A stretch of DNA of 10,685 nucleotides from Candidatus Desantisiibacteriota bacterium (GTDB taxonomy: Bacteria > JACRDZ01). Below are positions 86-10,684 of the stretch, piece by piece (position 1 is the stretch's first letter; each line of letters opens with the position of its first letter). The notes beneath the pieces are model-generated. The model ran no database searches. It was not told where the DNA came from and saw only the letters and a list, made by a program, of their open reading frames with translations. The position numbers and the translations under genes are program-made. The stretch lies in NCBI GenBank assembly GCA_016209155.1, contig JACQWU010000327.1, forward strand, positions 1 to 10,685, read 5' to 3'.

Positions 86-3000
86 TTAGTAATTAATATA
101 AATTGATTTGACCCAGTCTGTAAGCCTTAAGCCTTCAGCCTGTTCTACCTGAAACGTAGTTTCACTAATATTTGCCCCATCCATATCTTCTGAGAATGTA
201 ACAGCGATACCTGTATTAACATTTACCCATATTGCTCCATTTACAGGGTTTACTGACACAACCCGCGGGGGAATCGTATCAGGCGTACTAAAGCTCCATA
301 TATAATCCTGCAGCATCTCATTCCCCGCTAAATCTTTTACATTTTTTGCAATCGTTACAGTATATATAGCATTAGGTTCTAATGAACTCATAGGAATAAA
401 TGTTGCTACTCTATTATTATATGTCACTTTCCCTTCAACCTTCAGCCTTAAGCCTTCAGCCTTTTCTACTTGAAATGTATTTCCATTTACACTCGTCTCA
501 TCTATATTTTCTGAAAATGAAACAGTTAAAACTGCATTAACATTTTCTCTTTTTGCTCCATCTGCTGGATTTACTGATACAACTTGCGGAGGTATCATAT
601 CAAGTGTACCAAAACTCCATGTATATTCTTGTGGTAATGTATTTCCAGCTAAATCCTTTACTCCAGTTGTAATCGCTGCTGCATATATCGCATTAGATTC
701 TAATGGACTCGTAGGTGTAAATGTTGCTATTCGATTATTATATGTTACTTCCCCTTCAACCTTCAGCCTTAAGCCTTCAGCCTGTTCTACCTGAAATGTA
801 TTCCCATTTACACTCGCCCCATCCATCTCTTCAGAAAATTTAATTGCAACAACTGTATCAATTGGGACTCCATTTGCTTTATCTATTGGATTTATTGTTA
901 CAATCTCTGGTGGTATAGTATCAATTGTTGTAAAATTCCATACATAATTTTCCACTAATGCATTTCCTGCTATATCTTTAATTCCATTTGTAATTGTAAC
1001 TGTATATATAGTATTCGGTTCTAATATATTTGCAGGTATAAATGTTGCAACTCTATTATTATATGTTACTTCCCCTTCAACCTTCAGCCTTAAGCCTTCA
1101 GCCTGTTCTACTTGAAACGAAGTTTCATTAATACTCCCTGCATCTATATCCTCAGAAAATTTAACACTAATAGCCATGCTGGTTGAAATATTTATTTCTT
1201 TATCCTGAGGACTTATAGCAATAACCTGCGGTGAGATAGTATCTAATGTAGTAAAACTCCAAGAATAATTCTGCGCTAATATATTCCCGGCTAAATCCCT
1301 TACTCCAGTTGTAATCGTTGCAGTATATATATCATTAGGTTCTAATGGACTCATAGGAGTAAATGCTGCTATTAGATTATTATATGTTACTTCCCCTTCA
1401 ACCTTCAGCCTTAAGCCTTCAGCCTGTTCTACTTGAAACGTATTCCCATTTATACTTGCCTTATCTATTTCTTCTGAAAATGTTGCGCTTACAACTATAT
1501 TGGCATTTACTCTTGTTGCCCCATTTATAGGATTGGTTAATACAACTTGCGGTGAAATAATATCTATCCCGCCATTATATGACTTCTCACTCCATATCAC
1601 TTCGTAACCTAAAAGAATATAGCTTAATTCAATATGTATGGATTTTATCTGATAAGAAAATGCAGGTTCTTTTACTATTAACCATTCCAGTATTTTTGCG
1701 CATTCCAGTAGTCTATTTATGCTTTCTTCAATATTTTTGCTTGTATCTAATGATGATTTTTGTATTTTGTTTAATTTATCTAATAATTCTTTATCCCGGC
1801 CGCTTTTTATTCTAAGATTATTTATCTCAGTAATTATTCCTGCTATTTTTTCTTTGATACTTTCTTTTATTTCTATTTTTAGCTCCGGTGTATACTCATT
1901 TGTCTCCCATTTGCTTCCTGCTAGATACTGACTAAATGTTTTTAATATATATGTGCCCCCTCTATCTGCCATTTGCAAATTAACAAAAAGAGTTTTCATG
2001 TCTGTACTATCTGCTATTCTTAAATTCCATTGTACCTCTTCCTGTGCTTCATTAATCTGTCCATTTGATTTTTTTGCTTTTAGCCCAGCATAATTTTCCC
2101 TGATTATTAAATCACACTCCTGATCTGCCTTAACAGTAATTTCTATTGGAATATTATTGTAAGGTTCAAATACTACATTTTTTGGTTGTATATACTCTAA
2201 AGCGATATTCAGCAATTTTTTCTTTTTTTCAATATTTTCCTGTGTACTATTTATAGACTTTGGATTAAATGTAAATAATACTGCTTTGCCCTGTCCATAC
2301 ACATTTTCTTTTATCCACGTGGAATCCGTAATCTTAAAATCCCAATTTTCTTTTTCCCCACTATATCCTTTTTGTTTTATTCCTAAAACATTATCAAATA
2401 TTTCTGGATAACGATTTCCTTCTTTTGCCTTAATCCAGATAAATCCATCTCCTGAATATATTGCTTCACAAAGTTCTTTTATTGCTAAATCCCAATTTAC
2501 AGATGAGCAATCTTTATTATTTTTATTATCTGTTTTTTTATCTTTTTCAAAATTCTCACTTTCATCAATTATATACATATTATATTCTCTTGTATTTAGC
2601 TTTTCATAAAACTCCTTTTTGCAATTTGTTATATAAAATATTGCTCCGGATTGATTTAAAATTTCAGGGATAGTACTGTCAAAATTTTCATCTGCATAAA
2701 CCAGTATCCTTCTTTGATCTTTTTTTACATATTTATTTATAAATAATTTTACTCCTGGATTAGATGATAATGTTACCTGATTGGAGAAGCTGCTTTCATT
2801 GCCAGCTCTATCCAGCACTGTTGCAACATAACTATATTTAATATTTACTTCTACACTTGAATCATAATAGTATGTGGAATTAATAATCCCTGTTATTGGA
2901 TTGTATGGTTCTGCTTCATCAGCCTTACGCCTATATACCTTATACCCAGCAGCATCTTCCGCATTGCTTGATGCCCAATATAATTCACACGCTTTATTTT

Positions 3001-6000
3001 TCCCTTCACCAGTTAACCCTGTTATTGCTGGAGGCGGAATAGTATCGCGTTCTATTTTCTGGATATTACCTGTCCAACTGCTTCCTCCTTCATTTGTATA
3101 TGATACTGCTGTAATATTATTTTCTCCTTCGACTAATTCCAGTCTATATTCAAAATTCCCATTATTATCAGTATAAACCGTACCTATCAATTGATTATTC
3201 TGATATATCTTTATTCTGCTGTTTGCTTCTGCAGTTCCATGTATTATGATATATTTTGAGTTTGTCGCTTCAGCAATATAATCTATTTCAGGAGCTTTTG
3301 GCAGGTATATATTTTTAGTATAAATATTATTATTTTCATTATATTCCCTTATTGTATTATCCGGATCAACACTGATTTGTATTTGTAAATAATTTATAGT
3401 TGCCTGATTTATCAGGCTTGCTATTACATCCAGATCTAACCTGAACTCTACCTTCCCTATTGCCCCATTTTCAATAAGCTCAGGTATAATCATTTCTCCT
3501 ATACTTCTTTTTTCCTGTAGAGACGCAAAATTTTGCGTCTCTACCTTTATTATTATATTCTTCGCCGGCATTTCTCTATTTTTCACAACTTCAACTTTTA
3601 CTAACTTATATCCTTTGCCATACTGATCTATTTCCGTACTTCCAAATTCCACATTTTTAATTATTAAATCTGGCAGTTTTGTCCCATAATCAAAATATTT
3701 TTCAGCTTTACTTTTTAAACCTCCTGATTGTAAATTCATTGTTAAAATATGTTGTCCCGGTTGTATCTGTTCAGAAGTAAAAGATGTTGTATCCACAATA
3801 AGTCCTTTACCCTGTATTGATTTCTGCTGCACAGATGTTGTATCAATTTTAATTGTGACTTCACCCTGCTCATCATTTCCTCCGCTATAAATGTACGACG
3901 AAAGCAATACCTCTTCTGTGCCATATGGATATTCAACAGCATTTAGTTTTATTCCGCTTATATTCATCACACCAACTTCAAGCAACTGACGGGTAGTCAT
4001 TAAATACTGTTTTGCTACGCTCTCATTAACAATATAAAATAATTGATGCAGTCCTGACTGGTCTGTTTTAAGTTCGCCTGAAAACTCAATAAAATTTTCT
4101 CCTGGCAATAATTTATAATCCCCTGTAGTTAAGAGTCCATTGTAACCATCTGGTTTCAATAACCATGTTTCTATTTGTATATCCACTCCAACATCACTTT
4201 TTATTAACATCTTCCCTTTTATAGTGTCACCGGGTATATATGAATTTTTATCCAGAGTGATATATGGTATTTTTAAATCTATACCTGCTATATCAAATGG
4301 TATACTGCCAGAGAATTCTTCTTCACTATTTTTTGATTTGAAATTATACGAAATAAAATATGGTCCTGAAATTAATTTTAAAGGAAGCGATAAAATCTGT
4401 CTGGTCTGCCCGTTTTCTATTTCTCCTGACCATTCCCATCCTCCAGGACCGTTTAACTTTAAACTGCCAGAAATTGAATTTTGAATATTCACACTCACAT
4501 TTTCACCGGGATTATATACCTGTTTATCAACACTCACATTAATTACATCTTCCTGTTTTCGTACATACAATTCATTTAAATATACTGATCTATGCGTCAC
4601 TGCCTGGTATATCCCAACAAATAATTTTTCTCCTGTGATTTGAGCAAGCTGCATATTGTACTCAAGAGATATTCGATCTGTGATTGTAAAATTTTGCTCC
4701 AACTCAGTTGTATCATATTTTACCCGGCAAAATAACTCTGTAGCGAGCGAATTACTATTCGCTGCATTACTAATATTTAAAGTAAGCTTAAGCATATCTC
4801 CCTGCTTATATCCCTCTTGATTAAATTGTGCATCTACTTTAAGCTCTATTCCTTTTACTGTGAATGGTATGCTTGCTGGAATCTTTTCACCTTCAATATG
4901 AATCTCTGCCTTATACTCACCTTTTATCATATCCTCAGGAACTTTAAAATTTATTTCCTGTTCTCTTTCTTCTCCTGAAGCAAGCCAGATTTCTTTTTTA
5001 TCCTGATAAAAAGATGCCATATCAATAGTAATACTGGCACGCCCTGTTCTATCCCCAATATTTTTTATTTTGAAAATAATTTTTCCTGCCTGTCCGGCTA
5101 TGTATTCTCTCACCTGAGTTACAGGTTCTATAATAAATTTGCATTCACTGACAATAAAACTCGTATCAAATGTGTTTATAATTCCTGTTCCGCTCTCGAC
5201 ACTTATTTTTAAAGGATAACTCCCTCCAGAAATAGCCGCTGGATTTATCTGAAATACATAATTTTTACTATCACCGCTTTCTATATCAGCTTCTTTTCTA
5301 TCTTGATAAAACCCTGTATTTATTTCTACCTGCCCGCCAATTGCATTAAACCCTATATTATTTACTGCAAAATTTACAGGTATAAGTCCATCCACACTTC
5401 TCCCAATATTTATTTCTTCAATTTTTACCTGTTCTTTAGGAATTACATTAAATTCCGTTTCCGTGCTATCCATAAAATATTTAATTTTTAATTTATACGC
5501 TCCAGCCGATAAATCAGTTACAAACTGCATATCCTTACTCTGATTTTTTTCTATATAAATTTTTTCTATCTTCTGTACAGACGCAAAATTTTGCGTCTCT
5601 ACTTCTATCTTCAATTCTCCATCCACCCCCATCTCTTCAATATTTTTTACTATATATGGAATATTAATTTTCCCTTCAGCATATTTTGATTCAGGAGTTA
5701 TATCTATATCCAGTTTTTCCCCAAATTTTATTTCTTTTTGAATTGTCTTATCCACATCCCCAGTGATCTTAATGGCAAATATTGTATTTTGACTTATATT
5801 CATTTCCTGTTTGATGACTGTCCATTCCTGCGGTTTAAGTATTACTTGTATATTCCCATCAATCCATCCACTCATCAACCCATTAACATCTTTTACTTGT
5901 ATATTCATCTCCAGCTTCGTCGGATTATACAATCTTAATGTTATTGGAAAACTCTTTACCCCTGCAATAGAAGGAGCATCTAAATACATTTGTATCTCAG

Positions 6001-9000
6001 GTTTTACAACTTCAATATTCTTTATTATTACAGGGTTAATACTTGCTCGTAATTGAAAATTTTCATTTGCAACTGTATTTGTCTGACATAAATAGCTTGC
6101 TCCAGCTTCCAATTGTATACTTTCTGTATATATTTCATCCTCACCAGAAAATATTTTTAATTGTCCGGAAAAAAAGTTTCCTCCTTTATTTGTTAACATT
6201 GCCTGAATATTTACAATATCCCCAATACTATAAACATCTTTATCTGTTTTGACCTCCAAACTTATACCTGATGCGGATAAAACTCTTATTTCTGTTTGAG
6301 CGGATTTTAATTTCTGTCCTATGGATGAAAATAATTTCCCTTCAATCAAATAATTTCCAGAACTCTCTATTTTCCCTAAATCCTGTATCCAGCTTATTTT
6401 ATCGCCTGGGAAAAGCGATAAAGTAGTTTCATAACTATAAAGTGTATTCCCTGAAATTGCGCCTCCTGCTTCTCCCCAATAAAATGAATATCCATTTCTA
6501 TCAGGCTCTTTCCATATCTCATAAAGCTTATCCCCAATCCAGACAAAATTTGCTCCTGACATATTTATATTACCATTCAAAGCAATAGAAGTCGGCGGCT
6601 GCGCAGTACCTGGTACTATATATTTTTGTGTGCTTGCGCCATTTTCTTTTTCTTCATAAGCTATTACAACCTGTCCATCAGGCAGTTGAATTAATTTCGG
6701 ATTTTCTCCTTTTTTCCCTGTGGTATACGCTATATTAAATTTATCAAGTACCATTAAACTGCTGTCAGAATTTCCATCCCTATAAAATTCCGTCTTCAAT
6801 TTTATTCTGCCTTCAGAACTGCCTTCAAAATTTGCCCATCGCGCATAAGGCAGTCCATACCAATATTTCCCTTTATGTTCTCCCTGTCTGAAATTATGTT
6901 TGCTATTTGCTCCATACTGTGCCCATTCTATGTTCTCAGGGTCATACCATGCTTTTGTATCTATTACATAAATTACTGGTTTCCCTGAATTGTTTCTGCC
7001 TGCCAGCACAATTTCCAGTTTCCCATCTCCTTCTAAATCCGTTAAAATTGGAGAATTATCATAATTATTAAAATTTATATCTCCCAAATTAATTGGGAAA
7101 CCTGCTACTTTTTCTCCAGTATTATGATATGCATATATTCGATTATCACCAACAATTATTACTTCTGGTTCTCCATCTCCATCTATGTCGCCAATAATTG
7201 GAGTAGTAAAATTATTTTGCCCCCACCCATTAAAATATGGTAAATTATATTCTTTCCCTTCTGAATTAATCACTTTAAATTGATTTTTATTGCTATTCCA
7301 TAAACAAATTTCTAACTTATTATCTCCATCTATATCACCAAGTGAAATACACACTCCCGGCCTTTCATCCAATCCTGCAATTTTAATACTTTTCATAATA
7401 CTTCCATCATTATCATAAATCAAAACATAAGGTTCATGGTATACAACACTTTCTTTTTCTGGGTCATCATCCATATTCCCTATTGCCAATGATAAATATT
7501 TAATAAATTCATCTTGAAGATTAATTCGGGTATATAGATGCGGCCAGCCAGATGTACTCATTTGCTGCTCTCGTTCATCCCATGTTAAATCCCGCCATTT
7601 ATCAGGGACATTAATAGCTCCTATCCAGAAATCACTATTTACCATTATCTCTTCTTTTTTATCTTTATCAATATCCAGAAGCCCAATATTTGTAGATGGC
7701 GTATAAATTTGAGTAACAGGATAATTGCTTAATTTTAATTTAAAAGGACTATCTGGTTTATCTATATCCCATGCATTGATAAAAATATAATCACTTGTAC
7801 CAATATCTGGCAATCCATCTCCATCAAAATCACCTGTATGTAAAGATGGTTCCTCAAAATAATTATAGTAATAATAATCTGCTCCAGGACCATTTACTTT
7901 TCCATGATTATCAAACATATATAATCCAGATGATTTATTTACCATCATCTCTTCTTTGCCATCAGAATTAAAATCTTCAAGAACTACAAAACCCCCTTCA
8001 TCTCCAGATGCAAAACCTACTGGAAAATTCTCTATAATAGTTCCATCCGGTTTCCATGCATATAAACGATTGGGAGTATTTAATAATATTTCTAATTTCC
8101 CATCGCCATCTATATCCCCTGCTTCAGGATTGGTACGCCATGCCCATTTTGCATCATTTAATATTTTCGGCCATCCTTCACGTACTCTATATTCAGGCTT
8201 GCTGATTGTTGAATCATACACTTTCTCCCCCACGCTGAACCAAAAATTCAGTTGATGAGTGGATGAGTTGGTGGGTTGTTGAGTTGAACTCTTTTCGCTG
8301 CCTTCAGCCTTTATCTCCAGTATCTGCGCCATACCCGGAAGATTAATCTCTCCACTCTCCATCCATCCAACTTCATATCCTGGCGCAAGCTTTATCCCTT
8401 TTTCACCAGTGACTGATGACTGGAAACTACTGACTCCTTTACTCTTTCCACTAACCAGCAAATCTTCTGCCTCAATATCTGCCTGCCATAAATCACGTGT
8501 ATATTTTGTTGTACTGGAAAAGTTTGTTTGCCATGTTATTAAAGCAGTGTCAGTGTCAGTGGTCAGTGTCTGTATATTCCCAACCGCATAATATATATTC
8601 CTATCCTCCCCAACATAACTCAACCATATTTTTTTCCCTTCCTCGCCCCTTGTGGGAGAGGACTGAGGTGAGGGGGTAATCAAAACATCAAAACTCTCTT
8701 TATACCCATAAGGCAATGGAACAACTTCTTCTCTCGCAAAATTATCGCTATTTGTTCTATACGCAATTTCCCTATCCTGCCGCAAATAAAATATAATTAT
8801 TTCACTGTCATTGCGAGGTACAACAGATGTAGTGTCATTGCCAGGCGCAGCCGAAGCAATCTCTATTATCTTTGGCTTACTTCCAACCGCTATCTTTTTC
8901 TCGTCACCCCATATTATTTCACTGATTATACTTTGACTCTCTGACTCTCTGACACTTTGACTCTCTTTAATCCATATCGAGTTCTGCTTCTCATACACCA

Positions 9001-10684
9001 GCCATAATTGAGTTGATGAGTTAATGGGTTGTTGAGTGGATGAGTTAATTCCCGATTCTAAGAGCACAGGATTATGATTATTCCCCCCGCTTACTATTAT
9101 TTCCTCTTCTCCCCATATTGAATTCTTACTTCTGTCTTCTGACTTCTGTCTTCTGTATTTTATATTCCCCCCATCTTCCCATATAAATATTAATTCTCCA
9201 TTACTCAAACTATACAATCTTGCATTTTCCGGATTATTCTCAATATAGAATAATTTCTCAATCTCTTTTGGTGCGCTAATTCCTAAATATGGACTTGCCA
9301 ATTTTACATTAAATTTCCCATTCTCTATTTTCTTTGTACCAGTATTTTCAATATCTATTTTCACTTTCGCAATATCAGTACTATCTATTTCAGGAGAAGC
9401 TGCCACTACCTGTAATTCTGCTTGTATCCCTTCCACCTGTATTTCATACCATGTTGTTTCTTCCTGTACAGACGCAAAATTTTGCGTCTCTACTGTAGTT
9501 GCTTGATTTATCAAGCCTGTTGTATCAAAACTTGCTGACTCCTGACTGCTGATTGCTGTCAGCTTTATATAATATTTCCCTGTCTTAAGCTGCTCTTCCA
9601 GCAACAACCCTGTATCATATTTTTCTCCAGCATTTAAAGTTATCTGTTTTTTATAACTGATTAATGGATAATTAGTATTATCTCTTAATTCAACACTATA
9701 TTCCCCTGTCCCACGCACACCGCCAATATTTTCTATCTCAATTTCTACTTCTTCACCTGAATAATATGTTTCTCCTTCTGCCTTCATCCTTCTGCCTTCT
9801 GCCTTTATCTTAAACCCGGGTATATTAAATCTTGATATATGACTATTTAAAATTTCTCCATTTTTTTTACTTACTTCGATTTTAACATCATAATATCCTT
9901 CTCCTATATCATTTGGTAACAATACAGTATATTGATATGAATATTCTTTATTTAGAGGATTATATGTATCTGTCCAACTGCTATCCCAACCAAGATATGG
10001 TATGCTTAAATTAATTTCTGTTTCTCTTTCAACATCTGCTCCATAATATATTTCTATTTTCCCATTTAATAATTCATTCTGCCCATAAAAAGCTTTGCTA
10101 AATTCATTTTTTATTGCATAATTATTAGTTGCATTTATATTTTTATAATATGCATATTTCTGATTATTATAAATAAGAGTATAATACAATCTATATTCAC
10201 CTGACTTTACATCATTCCAATTTACATTTAATTCTTTTTCTATTGTTATTCTATTCCCTGCTTCTATCGAACCAAAATTAAGTTCATCTGTTAATATGCT
10301 TTCTCCTGTATTCTGGTTTTCTAAACTTAATTCAATTTTTCCTCCTTTGCAAAGTACTTCACCTATATTTAATATGTCAAAATTAATTATATTTGTATCT
10401 TTCCAAAAATCAGGGCATTTTAGCAAGATATTCAAATAAGCATTTCCATACTTAATGTTTTCTGACACAGTATATCCAATCCAATCATTTATCGGATCAT
10501 GCATTTTTGCTTCTATATAATAATATCCTCTTGTTAATGTACTGTCGAATTGAATATTTTTAACTATATTAATTGTCTCATAGGCTTTTATGCTTTCAAT
10601 CAATGTACTATCTTTCCATTTCTCCTCATTATTTAATGCTCTCTTCATTGTTAATATTAAATTATTAAATGCTTGCGTTTGTTC
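86..10684 (-). CDS. Giant multidomain extracellular-type protein (Ig-like, propeller, FG-GAP, CARDB, FN3, Big_5), N-terminus outside window
   Basis: One uninterrupted frame of more than 3,520 codons ends at TAA (88-86). The first ATG is at 10648-10646 (MKRALNNEEKW), but I do not think it is the true start. It has no purine-rich ribosome site (upstream reads TTAATATTAACA), no signal peptide follows, and the frame stays open to 10684 (upstream residues EQTQAFNNLILT). The composition is beta-rich, with almost no cysteine and many D-S-T/D-T-T and aromatic residues, typical of secreted bacterial surface proteins. The domain order is listed in separate entries. No hydrophobic anchor, LPXTG, PEP-CTERM or type IX sorting domain is visible at the C-terminus, which ends abruptly (TDWVKSIYINY) inside a Big_5 repeat, so the protein looks truncated there. 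About twenty short DNA repeats are read through within it. The function is unknown; adhesion or structural display is inferred from architecture only. That it is a real gene is near certain from its length. Confidence 0.95.
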   Translation of the reverse strand, partial: EQTQAFNNLILTMKRALNNEEKWKDSTLIESIKAYETINIVKNIQFDSTLTRGYYYIEAKMHDPINDWIGYTVSENIKYGNAYLNILLKCPDFWKDTNIINFDILNIGEVLCKGGKIELSLENQNTGESILTDELNFGSIEAGNRITIEKELNVNWNDVKSGEYRLYYTLIYNNQKYAYYKNINATNNYAIKNEFSKAFYGQNELLNGKIEIYYGADVERETEINLSIPYLGWDSSWTDTYNPLNKEYSYQYTVLLPNDIGEGYYDVKIEVSKKNGEILNSHISRFNIPGFKIKAEGRRMKAEGETYYSGEEVEIEIENIGGVRGTGEYSVELRDNTNYPLISYKKQITLNAGEKYDTGLLLEEQLKTGKYYIKLTAISSQESASFDTTGLINQATTVETQNFASVQEETTWYEIQVEGIQAELQVVAASPEIDSTDIAKVKIDIENTGTKKIENGKFNVKLASPYLGISAPKEIEKLFYIENNPENARLYSLSNGELIFIWEDGGNIKYRRQKSEDRSKNSIWGEEEIIVSGGNNHNPVLLESGINSSTQQPINSSTQLWLVYEKQNSIWIKESQSVRESESQSIISEIIWGDEKKIAVGSKPKIIEIASAAPGNDTTSVVPRNDSEIIIFYLRQDREIAYRTNSDNFAREEVVPLPYGYKESFDVLITPSPQSSPTRGEEGKKIWLSYVGEDRNIYYAVGNIQTLTTDTDTALITWQTNFSSTTKYTRDLWQADIEAEDLLVSGKSKGVSSFQSSVTGEKGIKLAPGYEVGWMESGEINLPGMAQILEIKAEGSEKSSTQQPTNSSTHQLNFWFSVGEKVYDSTISKPEYRVREGWPKILNDAKWAWRTNPEAGDIDGDGKLEILLNTPNRLYAWKPDGTIIENFPVGFASGDEGGFVVLEDFNSDGKEEMMVNKSSGLYMFDNHGKVNGPGADYYYYNYFEEPSLHTGDFDGDGLPDIGTSDYIFINAWDIDKPDSPFKLKLSNYPVTQIYTPSTNIGLLDIDKDKKEEIMVNSDFWIGAINVPDKWRDLTWDEREQQMSTSGWPHLYTRINLQDEFIKYLSLAIGNMDDDPEKESVVYHEPYVLIYDNDGSIMKSIKIAGLDERPGVCISLGDIDGDNKLEICLWNSNKNQFKVINSEGKEYNLPYFNGWGQNNFTTPIIGDIDGDGEPEVIIVGDNRIYAYHNTGEKVAGFPINLGDINFNNYDNSPILTDLEGDGKLEIVLAGRNNSGKPVIYVIDTKAWYDPENIEWAQYGANSKHNFRQGEHKGKYWYGLPYARWANFEGSSEGRIKLKTEFYRDGNSDSSLMVLDKFNIAYTTGKKGENPKLIQLPDGQVVIAYEEKENGASTQKYIVPGTAQPPTSIALNGNINMSGANFVWIGDKLYEIWKEPDRNGYSFYWGEAGGAISGNTLYSYETTLSLFPGDKISWIQDLGKIESSGNYLIEGKLFSSIGQKLKSAQTEIRVLSASGISLEVKTDKDVYSIGDIVNIQAMLTNKGGNFFSGQLKIFSGEDEIYTESIQLEAGASYLCQTNTVANENFQLRASINPVIIKNIEVVKPEIQMYLDAPSIAGVKSFPITLRLYNPTKLEMNIQVKDVNGLMSGWIDGNIQVILKPQEWTVIKQEMNISQNTIFAIKITGDVDKTIQKEIKFGEKLDIDITPESKYAEGKINIPYIVKNIEEMGVDGELKIEVETQNFASVQKIEKIYIEKNQSKDMQFVTDLSAGAYKLKIKYFMDSTETEFNVIPKEQVKIEEINIGRSVDGLIPVNFAVNNIGFNAIGGQVEINTGFYQDRKEADIESGDSKNYVFQINPAAISGGSYPLKISVESGTGIINTFDTSFIVSECKFIIEPVTQVREYIAGQAGKIIFKIKNIGDRTGRASITIDMASFYQDKKEIWLASGEEREQEINFKVPEDMIKGEYKAEIHIEGEKIPASIPFTVKGIELKVDAQFNQEGYKQGDMLKLTLNISNAANSNSLATELFCRVKYDTTELEQNFTITDRISLEYNMQLAQITGEKLFVGIYQAVTHRSVYLNELYVRKQEDVINVSVDKQVYNPGENVSVNIQNSISGSLKLNGPGGWEWSGEIENGQTRQILSLPLKLISGPYFISYNFKSKNSEEEFSGSIPFDIAGIDLKIPYITLDKNSYIPGDTIKGKMLIKSDVGVDIQIETWLLKPDGYNGLLTTGDYKLLPGENFIEFSGELKTDQSGLHQLFYIVNESVAKQYLMTTRQLLEVGVMNISGIKLNAVEYPYGTEEVLLSSYIYSGGNDEQGEVTIKIDTTSVQQKSIQGKGLIVDTTSFTSEQIQPGQHILTMNLQSGGLKSKAEKYFDYGTKLPDLIIKNVEFGSTEIDQYGKGYKLVKVEVVKNREMPAKNIIIKVETQNFASLQEKRSIGEMIIPELIENGAIGKVEFRLDLDVIASLINQATINYLQIQISVDPDNTIREYNENNNIYTKNIYLPKAPEIDYIAEATNSKYIIIHGTAEANSRIKIYQNNQLIGTVYTDNNGNFEYRLELVEGENNITAVSYTNEGGSSWTGNIQKIERDTIPPPAITGLTGEGKNKACELYWASSNAEDAAGYKVYRRKADEAEPYNPITGIINSTYYYDSSVEVNIKYSYVATVLDRAGNESSFSNQVTLSSNPGVKLFINKYVKKDQRRILVYADENFDSTIPEILNQSGAIFYITNCKKEFYEKLNTREYNMYIIDESENFEKDKKTDNKNNKDCSSVNWDLAIKELCEAIYSGDGFIWIKAKEGNRYPEIFDNVLGIKQKGYSGEKENWDFKITDSTWIKENVYGQGKAVLFTFNPKSINSTQENIEKKKKLLNIALEYIQPKNVVFEPYNNIPIEITVKADQECDLIIRENYAGLKAKKSNGQINEAQEEVQWNLRIADSTDMKTLFVNLQMADRGGTYILKTFSQYLAGSKWETNEYTPELKIEIKESIKEKIAGIITEINNLRIKSGRDKELLDKLNKIQKSSLDTSKNIEESINRLLECAKILEWLIVKEPAFSYQIKSIHIELSYILLGYEVIWSEKSYNGGIDIISPQVVLTNPINGATRVNANIVVSATFSEEIDKASINGNTFQVEQAEGLRLKVEGEVTYNNLIAAFTPMSPLEPNDIYTATITTGVRDLAGNILAQNYSWSFTTLDTISPQVIAISPQDKEINISTSMAISVKFSEDIDAGSINETSFQVEQAEGLRLKVEGEVTYNNRVATFIPANILEPNTIYTVTITNGIKDIAGNALVENYVWNFTTIDTIPPEIVTINPIDKANGVPIDTVVAIKFSEEMDGASVNGNTFQVEQAEGLRLKVEGEVTYNNRIATFTPTSPLESNAIYAAAITTGVKDLAGNTLPQEYTWSFGTLDMIPPQVVSVNPADGAKRENVNAVLTVSFSENIDETSVNGNTFQVEKAEGLRLKVEGKVTYNNRVATFIPMSSLEPNAIYTVTIAKNVKDLAGNEMLQDYIWSFSTPDTIPPRVVSVNPVNGAIWVNVNTGIAVTFSEDMDGANISETTFQVEQAEGLRLTDWVKSIYINY
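118..145 (-). repeat. Heptamer block, degenerate copy in truncated Big_5 unit 5
   Basis: Plus strand reads CTGTAAG-CCTTAAG-CCTTCAG-CCTGTTC. Only the two central heptamers match the four-heptamer blocks of the other units. Coding frame gives EQAEGLRL then TD. Homology to the Big_5 domain ends at this block. Confidence 0.85.
432..459 (-). repeat. Heptamer block in Big_5 unit 4
   Basis: Plus strand reads CCTTCAA-CCTTCAG-CCTTAAG-CCTTCAG, four tandem heptamers, coding for AEGLRLKVEG in unit 4 (EKAEGLRL variant just outside it). Confidence 0.9.
753..780 (-). repeat. Heptamer block in Big_5 unit 3
   Basis: Same four heptamers CCTTCAA-CCTTCAG-CCTTAAG-CCTTCAG with no base changes relative to units 1, 2 and 4, although the surrounding domain sequence has diverged. 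Confidence 0.9.
1074..1101 (-). repeat. Heptamer block in Big_5 unit 2
   Basis: Identical 28-bp four-heptamer block; exactly 321 bp from the copies on either side. Confidence 0.9.
1395..1422 (-). repeat. Heptamer block in Big_5 unit 1
   Basis: Identical 28-bp four-heptamer block; the first copy met by the coding strand, about residue 3,080. Confidence 0.9.
1680..1890 (-). other. Helical, possibly coiled-coil segment (residues ~2920-2990)
   Basis: IEIKESIKEKIAGIITEIN, then RDKELLDKLNKIQKSSLD and ESINRLLECAKILEWLI, form a lysine/glutamate-rich amphipathic stretch with leucine/isoleucine at roughly heptad spacing. It is the only clearly helical region in an otherwise beta protein. It separates the alpha/beta segment from the C-terminal Ig array, and may act as a spacer or stalk (inference). 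Confidence 0.55.
2250..2725 (-). other. Glutamine-amidotransferase-like alpha/beta segment (residues ~2642-2800)
   Basis: The beta-sandwich series is interrupted by an alpha/beta stretch. Strand RRILVYADENF is followed by strand AIFYITNC, the N-x-Y-D-like YNMYIIDES, helix WDLAIKELCEAIYS then GDGFIWIKA, and finally GQGKAVLFTFNP. This order matches the non-catalytic class-I glutamine-amidotransferase-like (ThuA/DUF4350-type) fold, in which a G-G-x-[FL]-x-x-[ILV] turn and a final G-[KR]-V-x-x-x-x-[FP] strand recur. The nucleophile elbow (G-x-C-x-G) is absent, so I do not propose catalysis. The assignment is by pattern and tentative. Confidence 0.4.
2764..3046 (-). other. Fibronectin type III domain (residues ~2535-2628)
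   Basis: DTIPPPAITGLTGEG is followed by ACELYWASSNAEDAAGYKVY, then a Y-rich strand (TYYYDSSVE) and KYSYVATVLDRAGNESSFSN. This is the classic FN3 layout: P-P-x-x-x-x-L at the start, L-x-W, G-Y-x-V-Y-R, Y-x-Y-x-V-x-A-x-D-x-x-G-N-E-S at the end. FN3 domains serve as spacers or carbohydrate- and protein-binding modules in secreted bacterial proteins. Confidence 0.88.
3047..3300 (-). other. Bacterial Ig domain of the Big_6/Big_9 type (residues ~2451-2534)
   Basis: The stretch contains IHGTAEANSRIKIYQNNQL, IGTVYTDNNGNFEYRLEL and GENNITAVSYTNEGG. This matches the plan G-x-A-x-x-x-x-x-I-x-V/I-Y ... G-x-x-x-x-D-x-x-G-x-[FW] ... G-x-N-x-I-x-A seen in bacterial surface Ig domains. It lies directly between the CARDB-like and FN3 domains, a common order. 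Confidence 0.75.
3402..3417. repeat. Short hairpin repeat, LINQAT family, copy 2
   Basis: GCCTGAT-TT-ATCAGGC is a perfect 7-bp stem around a TT centre. It is read as SLINQAT in the CARDB-like domain. It matches the hairpin at 9501-9516 including flanks (AGTTGC before), with paired compensating changes in the stem (C-T to T-C, and G-G to A-G on the other arm). It lies in the same reading frame as that copy. Confidence 0.8.
3517..3544. repeat. 28-bp perfect palindrome, copy 3
   Basis: Arm GTAGAGACGCAAAA is followed immediately by its exact reverse complement. It is read as VETQNFASLQ within the CARDB-like domain, after the strand AKNIIIKV. It is the only one of the three copies that is a perfect palindrome. 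Confidence 0.93.
4746..4763. repeat. GCGAAT hairpin within coding sequence
   Basis: AGCGAAT-TACT-ATTCGCT is a 7-bp perfect stem with a 4-base loop, read as NSNSLAT. It resembles short GCGAAT/ATTCGC inverted repeats that I recall as dispersed elements in several bacterial genomes. Only one copy is present here, so its repeat status is not shown by this window. Confidence 0.55.
5575..5602. repeat. 28-bp palindrome, copy 2 (one mismatched pair)
   Basis: GTACAGACGCAAAA followed by TTTTGCGTCTCTAC. It differs from copy 3 by a single base (G to C at its fourth base) and is read as VETQNFASVQ between Ig strands KIEV and KIEKIYIE. It is 2,058 bp from copy 3, a multiple of three, so the frame is the same. 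Confidence 0.93.
5857..5887 (+). repeat. Possible inverted copy of the GTTGAG-rich repeat
   Basis: Plus strand ATCCATCCACTCATCAACCC then ATTAAC resembles the reverse complement of the 9008-9050 block (CATCCACTCAACAACCCATTAAC). On the coding strand it gives NGLMSGWIDG, a plausible native domain sequence, so chance resemblance is possible. Confidence 0.35.
6267..6878 (-). other. Beta-propeller-like blades, part 2 (residues ~1257-1460)
   Basis: After the FG-GAP block the earlier blade pattern returns. KLIQLPDGQVVIAYEEKEN (~1317) and NFVWIGDKLYEIWKEP (~1365) with YSFYWGEAGG show the same strand-turn-strand layout as the blades before residue 700. A beta-rich stretch (SGNYLIEGKLFSS, AQTEIRVLSASG) leads into the following Ig-like series. 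The FG-GAP block may therefore sit inside, or between two halves of, a second propeller. Fold assignment is inferred. Confidence 0.4.
6879..8159 (-). other. Eight FG-GAP/VCBS-type calcium-loop repeats (residues ~830-1255)
   Basis: Eight repeats carry a D-x-D-x-D-G-like loop followed by K/P-x-E-I/V and a strand ending near an A-x-[DN]-x-x-G turn: GDIDGDGKLEI (~845), EDFNSDGKEEM (~889), GDFDGDGLPDI (~940), LDIDKDKKEEI (~990), GNMDDDPEKES (~1056), GDIDGDNKLEI (~1103), GDIDGDGEPEV (~1153) and TDLEGDGKLEI (~1202). The fourth, fifth and eighth loops are degenerate. Loops of this kind bind calcium in integrin-alpha-like seven- or eight-bladed propellers. The block closes with EWAQYGANSKHNFRQGE, resembling the W-x-x-x-x-H-D-x-x-x-T-G tail often seen after such arrays. 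This is the most secure domain call in the protein. Confidence 0.88.
8251..8289 (-). repeat. GTTGAG-rich repeat, copy 2
   Basis: GTTGATGAGTGGATGAGTTG followed by GTGGGTTGTTGAGTTGAAC. It is read as SSTQQPTNSSTHQLN, nearly the same peptide as copy 1. Confidence 0.8.
8301..8314 (-). repeat. Two-unit heptamer CCTTCAG-CCTTTAT
   Basis: A minimal copy of the CCTTCAG heptamer family, read as IKAEG, the same peptide start as at 9774-9808. It is followed within 12 bp by the GTTGAG-rich repeat copy 2. Confidence 0.6.
8406..8437 (-). repeat. Heptamer block CTGATGA-type
   Basis: Plus strand reads CCAGTGA-CTGATGA-CTGGAAA-CTACTGA-CTCC, imperfect heptamers. It is read as VSSFQSSVTGE, a serine-rich linker. 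Confidence 0.6.
8546..8570 (-). repeat. AGTGTC tandem block
   Basis: Plus strand AGTGTC-AGTGTC-AGTGGTC-AGTGTC; read as TLTTDTDTA after blade 4. Confidence 0.7.
8642..8676 (-). repeat. CTCGCCCC/CTCTCCCAC-type dispersed repeat
   Basis: A sharply GC-richer block (CTCGCCCCTTGTGGGAGAGG then ACTGAGGTGAGGGGG) stands out in AT-rich surroundings. Its reverse complement, CCTCACC...CCTCTCCCACAAGGGGCGAG, is a familiar dispersed bacterial repeat. It is read as TPSPQSSPTRGEEGK, a peptide typical of such read-through. Confidence 0.75.
8804..8863 (-). repeat. TGTCATTGC-type dispersed repeat, double element
   Basis: Two half-elements lie in tandem: TGTCATTGCGAGGTACAACA and TGTCATTGCCAGGCGCAGCC followed by GAAGCAATCTC. 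The pattern TCATTGCGAGG...GAAGCAATCTC is one I recognise as a common dispersed intergenic repeat in many bacterial genomes. Here it is translated (IEIASAAPGNDTTSVVPRND) between blades 2 and 3. Confidence 0.7.
8930..8961 (-). repeat. Tandem octamer block
   Basis: Plus strand reads ACTTTGAC-TCTCTGAC-TCTCTGAC-ACTTTGAC, four octamers. The coding strand gives SQSVRESESQS, a low-complexity linker between blades 2 and 3. Confidence 0.8.
9008..9050 (-). repeat. GTTGAG-rich repeat, copy 1
   Basis: TTGAGTTGATGAGTTAATGG followed by GTTGTTGAGTGGATGAGTTAA. It is read as INSSTQQPINSSTQL between blades. It matches the block at 8251-8289 in both DNA and reading frame. Confidence 0.8.
9129..9156 (-). repeat. 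Heptamer block CTTCTGT-type
   Basis: Plus strand reads CTTCTGT-CTTCTGA-CTTCTGT-CTTCTGT. It is read as YRRQKSEDRSK between propeller-like blades 1 and 2. Confidence 0.85.
9466..9493. repeat. 28-bp palindrome, copy 1 (one mismatched pair)
   Basis: Identical to copy 2 over all 28 bases and 3,891 bp from it, again a multiple of three. It is read as VETQNFASVQ. It sits 7 bp from the LINQAT hairpin, giving the composite peptide LINQATTVETQNFASVQ. Confidence 0.93.
9501..9516. repeat. Short hairpin repeat, LINQAT family, copy 1
   Basis: GCTTGAT-TT-ATCAAGC is a 7-bp stem, read as GLINQAT. It is immediately next to the 28-bp palindrome at 9466-9493 and to a heptamer block at 9534-9561, so three repeat families are strung together within about 100 bp. 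Confidence 0.8.
9534..9561 (-). repeat. Heptamer block GCTGACT-type
   Basis: Plus strand reads GCTGACT-CCTGACT-GCTGATT-GCTGTCA, four imperfect tandem heptamers, coding for TAISSQESAS. Confidence 0.7.
9774..9808 (-). repeat. Heptamer block CCTTCTG-type
   Basis: Plus strand reads CCTTCTG-CCTTCAT-CCTTCTG-CCTTCTG-CCTTTAT. Coding strand gives IKAEGRRMKAEGE, a 7-residue period (KAEG) produced by three heptamers. It is a close relative of the AEGLRLKVEG blocks in the C-terminal array. Confidence 0.85.

Follow-up and report, generated by a model that had tools for sequence, protein, structure and literature searches.

A family of giant genes, encoding putative secreted, beta-rich surface proteins, is likely to be a tolerant sink in which small dispersed repeats of many families accumulate. 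Insertions would have to pass a filter on frame and peptide character, and gene conversion would spread them locally. One member of this family fills the window, the whole stretch of 10,685 nucleotides that was analysed. The window is the entire contig C287 of a genome bin (3.08 Mb, 352 contigs, 79% complete, about 34% GC). The gene family was studied in this one fragmented bin, and the sample genes were crude ORF calls.

The giant ORF on the minus strand runs through 3,532 codons without a stop, and its 5' end lies beyond the contig. Five Big_5 domains, FG-GAP repeats, one CARDB and one Big_6 domain were assigned with Pfam. From this domain make-up, the product is probably a secreted or surface protein. 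Compared with the closest paralogue, on contig C285, second codon positions were 77% identical and third positions 52%; thus, the giant gene is under protein-level constraint. The in-frame repeat load of the original prediction was confirmed, and its count of about twenty was refined to about 22 elements with a heptamer tract in all five Big_5 domains (Table 1). These are three copies of REP1, two of REP2, a double unit of GTCATTGCGAG type, the CCTCTCCC block, four octamer blocks, a hexamer block and heptamer arrays. The idea that one single gene is special was not borne out. Related giant loci were found on seven other contigs, those compared including C285, C313, C349, C196 and C288, and about eight loci with the window gene share the repeat-rich trait.

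Part of the window gene is missing at the 5' end, and the 3' end may be truncated as well. Within positions 1-121 the ORF departs from Big_5 homology inside the fifth heptamer tract, enters ACAGACTGGGTCAAATCAATTTAT and then stops. ACAGACTGGGTCAAATCAATTTAT is repeated in contigs C60 and C86, and window bases 1-46 match contig C30 near the end of that contig. Either an element truncating the gene or a contig ending in a repeat join would account for this. In C285 (L060 665-1909) a frame change and two TAA stops were located near the REP2 site, attributable either to decay or to frame switching.

Table 1 Features of the window and the state of the corresponding sites in paralogues
Feature	Positions	Strand	Observation
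Giant ORF	86-10684	-	3532 codons, 5' open; FG-GAP repeats, CARDB, Big_6, five Big_5
GGCAGAA heptamer array KAEGRRMKAEGE	9770-9809	-	shorter in paralogue C349
CAGCAGT heptamer-like array (TAISSQESA)	9533-9559	-	first part of compound insert
REP2 GTAG-tagged hairpin, + strand GTAGTTGCTTGATTTATCAAGC (LINQAT)	9495-9516	-	part of compound insert
REP1 (VETQNFASVQ)	9466-9493		missing in C349 together with CAGCAGT and REP2 parts, total gap 24 aa
CAGAAGA heptamer array (RRQKSEDRSK)	9123-9155	-	AATTCAA heptamer in C349
GTTGAG-type octamer array NSSTQQPINSSTQ	9009-9046	-	11 aa absent in C349
AGAGTCA octamer array ESQSVRESESQS	8934-8966	-	no other genome copy
Two GTCATTGCGAG-type units (APGNDTTSVVPRND)	8807-8844	-	one unit in C285, none in C349
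CCTCACC..CCTCTCCC..GGGGCGAGG element (SPQSSPTRGEE)	8641-8673	-	one copy in this genome, several in distant genomes; C349 lacks it
CACTGA hexamer array (TLTTDTDTA)	8545-8570	-	21-mer minisatellite and REP3 in C285
GTTGAG-type octamer array SSTQQPTNSSTHQ	8245-8285	-	two REP3 hairpins in C285
Short GAAGGCA heptamer tract (EGSSEGR)	6806-6827	-	longer related arrays in C285, C313, C349
GTTGAG-type octamer, opposite orientation (VNGLMSGWIDG)	5864-5887	+	CAGAAG heptamer in C285; AGCAATG heptamer in C313 and C349
REP1	5575-5602		CAGAAG heptamer in C285; GTAGGGGCGG palindrome in C313; no repeat in C349
REP1	3517-3544		same site in C285 and C349
REP2 variant, paired stem changes (SLINQATI)	3396-3417	-	
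AAGGCTG heptamer tract, Big_5 domain 1	1395-1426	-	
AAGGCTG heptamer tract, Big_5 domain 2	1074-1105	-	
AAGGCTG heptamer tract, Big_5 domain 3	753-784	-	
AAGGCTG heptamer tract, Big_5 domain 4	432-463	-	
Start of AAGGCTG tract, Big_5 domain 5	123-142	-	homology to other domains ends here
24-bp sequence	98-121		repeated in two other contigs; ORF enters, stops at 86

REP1 is a perfect palindrome of 28 bp (GTAGAGACGCAAAATTTTGCGTCTCTAC) of the form GTAG...CTAC, with GTAG at both ends. It was predicted from its three window copies and is real: 30 places were found genome-wide and none with the reversed control. In a genome sample of 0.89 Mb, 7 of 29 copies lay inside ORFs of at least 200 codons and 18 of 29 were clear of any ORF. 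The predicted LINQAT hairpin, the GTAG-tagged REP2 (GTAGTTGCTTGAT), was also verified; besides its two window copies, eight others were detected in the 0.89 Mb sample, seven of them intergenic. Together with REP3 (GTAGTGCGAGGC), both have the form of GTAG-tagged REPs, hairpins of 20-40 bp with GTAG at one end, and occur in many dispersed, mainly extragenic copies. Outside the giant family, REP2, REP3 and the GTCATTGCGAG repeat were mainly intergenic. The few REPs within ordinary genes were located chiefly in exported proteins or at gene ends.

REP1 is read through in frame three times in the window and furthermore in C349, C285, C196 and two TolC-like genes. The latter, which appear TolC-like by their sequence and were named without a profile search, are adjacent (L022 on C70), and the palindrome codes in frame for VETQNFAS in both (16512-16539 and 18660-18687). 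In one of them it follows directly after the signal peptide. The palindrome was not found in three phylum mates. Its exact 28 bp occur twice in the distant genome G330 (C46 17881 and 182999; L181, L182), in no long ORF.

By exact 14-mer counting the palindrome, the LINQAT core and AAGGCTG were found, besides AT-rich low-complexity words and the contig-end repeat. Exact 14-mers were insufficient for the other families, which required fuzzy patterns. Fuzzy counts refer to the 0.89 Mb sample; key elements were searched by pattern in the whole genome. A GCGAAT hairpin (4746-4763), likewise listed as a repeat, was rejected as a dispersed family, with three fuzzy matches in the sample and one in the control.

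The heptamer, octamer and GTTGAG arrays are real as well and were absent from Markov controls. The heptamer arrays are short and degenerate, with 3-5 units, and those of AAGGCTG and AGCAATG also recur between genes. In the genome-wide pattern searches of the 79% complete bin, the GTTGAG octamer was detected only in the window and the giant paralogue C196, with no intergenic copy. The AGAGTCA octamer was confined to the window and strict CAGAAG arrays to giant-family contigs, and the CCTCTCCC block was present as a single copy, in the window. A 20-base part of this block occurred in 20 of the 145 genomes searched (own included), mostly in several copies each; the control gave 0. Mapping the copies repeat by repeat as intergenic or genic, as the original prediction had proposed, upheld its claim of mostly intergenic repeats for REP1 to REP3 and GTCATTGCGAG, which are dispersed; AAGGCTG and AGCAATG have copies between genes too. 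The claim failed for the octamers, the CCTCTCCC block and strict CAGAAG, which have no intergenic copy and are private to the giant genes here. The wording fits some of the listed families in the source genome and others only in other genomes. Since the private types have no intergenic source in this genome, they would have to have arisen locally or been imported.

Two further occurrences of tandem repeats were observed. Ordinary genes with heptamer-coded tails (RLKAEGF...) lie near 8087 of L133 and near 6964 of L136, as if a downstream repeat had turned into the C-terminus. A GC-rich minisatellite of 21 bp (GGCGGGATACAAAGCGGAG type) is present between genes (L067 3555-3606) and in paralogue C285 (L060 7100-7153).

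The private arrays also bear on the question of whether the repeats were inserted at all. Replication slippage could have expanded low-complexity loops of a native linker in place, yielding the heptamer and octamer arrays. The octamers and strict CAGAAG without intergenic copies in the source genome would fit such an origin, and so would sites that vary among paralogues without length change. Nevertheless, we regard it as unlikely, though not far-fetched, as the general explanation. The GTAG palindromes, GTCATTGCGAG units and CCTCTCCC block are sequence-specific families found elsewhere and are left unexplained by it, and AAGGCTG and AGCAATG arrays recur outside genes. Furthermore, gain of a single unit of 7 bases breaks the frame; slippage under frame selection should therefore favour 3, 6 or 9.

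Empty sites were identified within the genome. Paralogue C349, which aligned well on both flanks of each site, has four gaps relative to the window: 24 aa at the hairpin-plus-palindrome compound, 11 aa at the INSSTQQPINSSTQ block, 10 aa at the APGNDTTSVVPRND block and 11 aa at the PSPQSSPTRGEEG block. Clean insertion sites, originally sought in orthologues, are thus provided by a paralogue. Orthologues in named genomes gave only weak matches at domain level (26-41% identity), useless for empty sites.

Other sites are filled differently. Three different elements and one unfilled site were found across the window and its paralogues at window position 5575, where the replacement occurred without length change. 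A hairpin of the Big_5 domains carries AAGGCTG in the window, CAGAAG in C349 and GGCAGAA, CACTGA or AGTAGAC types in C288; other domains have none. Elements of different families coincided at homologous sites 11 times compared with 2.4 expected from circular shifts (p=9e-4), counted on automatically detected elements with one re-placed by hand and one misaligned element dropped. For an earlier version per pair with loose spans, p was 0.02-0.18. Coincidences of the same family, including those by shared ancestry, numbered 8 compared with 0.2 expected. With different repeats at the same site and empty sites in paralogues, the proposed tolerant landing site is supported, for the gene family.

Repeat density, counted for REP1 to REP3, exact GTCATTGCGAG and heptamer arrays, was 0.59/kb in the giant family, 0.008/kb in ordinary ORFs and 0.24/kb in intergenic DNA. 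By Fisher's test the giant family differed from ordinary ORFs with p of about 7e-31 and from intergenic DNA with p of about 4e-4, membership of the family resting on homology to a window that was itself chosen for its repeats. Without this window, about 24 elements remained in 48 kb (p of about 2e-22). Collapsing shared sites reduced the density to an estimated 0.4/kb, close to the intergenic value. It is therefore safe to state that the giant family tolerates repeats about as well as intergenic DNA does.

All 19 heptamer arrays of the giant family were purine-rich on the coding strand. Hence, their peptides are hydrophilic, rich in R, K, E, D, Q and S. This bias points to a filter at the peptide level; some arrays are related copies, so that fewer events are independent. 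Stop avoidance was rejected as the main filter, as the array units are open equally often in sense and antisense (13 of 19 each). The signal from orientation is stronger.

For the REP1 copy common to three paralogues, third codon positions were 90-100% identical compared with 46-59% in the flanks (9-10 codons). Most differences fell on first and second codon positions, and C285 has paired changes in both arms. Over these 9-10 codons, the pattern suggests that a DNA element was kept rather than a peptide. The comparison of peptide and nucleotide conservation, named beforehand as a possible refutation, thus came out in favour of inserted elements.

Homogenised tracts were detected between tandem domains. 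In the Big_5 domains of the window, identity reaches 94% over some 66 nt around the heptamer, compared with 64% and 74% in the flanks (21-codon window test, p=5e-5). In C349, identity between two Big_5 domains jumps from about 55% to 100% at a point some 15 nt ahead of the heptamer. The simplest reading of these identity profiles is short-tract gene conversion that starts at the repeat or close to it, and re-insertion at the same place would be the alternative. A mechanism copying repeats into the gene, as once suggested, thus receives some support locally, in the repeat tracts of tandem domains, and not beyond. For a gene that creates and exports repeats, no evidence was obtained.

Six Y1_Tnp (RAYT-type) genes are present in the genome. 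In the flanks examined, REP1, REP2 and GTCATTGCGAG were not found beside any of them. The Y1_Tnp genes of C106 and C314 are each accompanied by their own repeated hairpins (GGAACGGTTTCAAACCGTTCC, L144 1432, 1677 and 2037; GGCAGCGCGGCTTTATCGCGCTGCC, L139 1721 and 2608), which are candidate REPs of these transposases. Another Y1_Tnp gene (18020-18349) lies directly downstream of the giant paralogue in C349 and is flanked by two REP3-like hairpins (L032 17838 and 18482; span 17838-18504). It may form a RAYT-REP3 pair with them.

For the tolerant sink, four steps are proposed. Repeats of unrelated classes (GTAG-tagged palindromes, GTCATTGCGAG, heptamer and octamer minisatellites) would move or expand in the genome; copy number was observed, and movement itself is proposed. 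Ordinary genes would purge insertions, and those keeping the frame in hydrophilic orientation would survive in loops between strands or domains. Depletion in ordinary genes and orientation were shown statistically. Different repeats would then converge on the same loop across paralogues, because tolerant loops are presumably few; the co-location was likewise shown statistically. Finally, short-tract gene conversion may carry repeats and their immediate flanks from one tandem domain to another, as the identity profiles suggest. The assignment of the sites to loops is predicted from domain alignment and weak fold models (pLDDT 36 and 45). Among the results that speak against the sink, the private families have no intergenic source in the 79% complete bin, the replacement at window position 5575 without length change is not predicted by simple insertion, and none of the six Y1_Tnp genes could be linked to the palindromes.

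It is conceivable, but rather doubtful, that the repeats are actively captured and shuffled into surface loops through repeat-seeded gene conversion or template switching, and that this extends to repeat types which the genome lacks elsewhere. If so, a family of surface proteins would obtain its variable loops from small selfish repeats. An active diversity system, in which purposeful transfer of repeats into surface loops varies the proteins or heptamer length switches the frame on and off, seems improbable. Same-site turnover, homogenised tracts, a density at least equal to intergenic DNA and the split of C285 by frame change and stops would agree with it. However, the arrays are short and degenerate, a dedicated enzyme or template locus was not found in the genome and passive filtering would account for the orientation bias just as well. 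An assembly or binning artefact, with a chimeric contig joined across repeats, is hardly credible. In its favour, the bin is fragmented and incomplete, and the contig end 1-121 matches stretches on other contigs, two of which lie close to a contig end. Against it, the 3,532 open codons traverse every repeat, paralogues on other contigs align through the repeats with intact flanks and REP1 was found on many contigs of the bin.

The giant family bears on how bacterial repeats of 20-40 bp spread and on whether they help or harm the host. If the tolerant sink is accepted, the giant family is a readable, alignable fossil record of insertions with paralogues as internal control. The filter on insertions becomes measurable in frame, orientation and hydrophilicity, and a direct test of selfish repeats feeding protein diversity is offered. 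For annotation, peptides coded by repeats (VETQNFASLQ, SPTRGEEG) should not be taken for conserved protein motifs. No description of a gene family collecting many repeat classes in frame with same-site turnover was found in open-licence papers, which is weak evidence for novelty.

Among known systems, small dispersed repeats of cyanobacteria were reportedly described by Elhai in 2008 as hairpins of 20-30 nt beside or inside heptameric STRR arrays, mostly intergenic. The compound of hairpin and heptamer is similar here, but lies in frame in coding DNA. Rickettsia palindromic elements are inserted in frame and translated as an added peptide, and also occur between genes (PMC2229807, PMC10969869). 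REP1 resembles them in its in-frame insertion with open reading through the element and in its intergenic copies. Their size of 105-146 bp (PMC2229807) is not reached by its 28 bp, so REP1 is not classed with them, and they reside in many unrelated genes, often of conserved enzymes, whereas elements of 20-40 bp and many classes share one giant family here. In the Beggiatoaceae, TAACTGA is an intergenic heptamer direct repeat of one family with a proposed regulatory role (PMC4679880); dispersed heptamers are common to both cases, but those are intergenic and of a single family. PARCEL, the palindromic amphipathic repeat coding element, also combines palindromic DNA with coded repeat peptides in surface or membrane proteins (PMC2996958). 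It is a tandem domain of 25 residues and one family, in contrast to the many short unrelated families at scattered sites described here.

GTAG-tagged REPs share the GTAG end, the short hairpin and the mostly intergenic location with some copies in frame within genes. Intragenic cases are known from Opitutus terrae and others, and one remark concerns two Xanthomonas whose recB genes carry different REPs at roughly the same position (Di Nocera 2013, PMC3733652). Only some GTAG families have a RAYT gene flanked by the repeat. REP1 differs from these REPs in being perfectly palindromic, so that GTAG stands at both ends, and no RAYT gene was found adjoining it; the hosts are giant multi-domain proteins instead of repair genes, with tandem arrays mixed in. 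In general, in-frame insertion is already known from Rickettsia elements and intragenic REPs; new are the multi-family load, the same-site turnover and the homogenised tracts.
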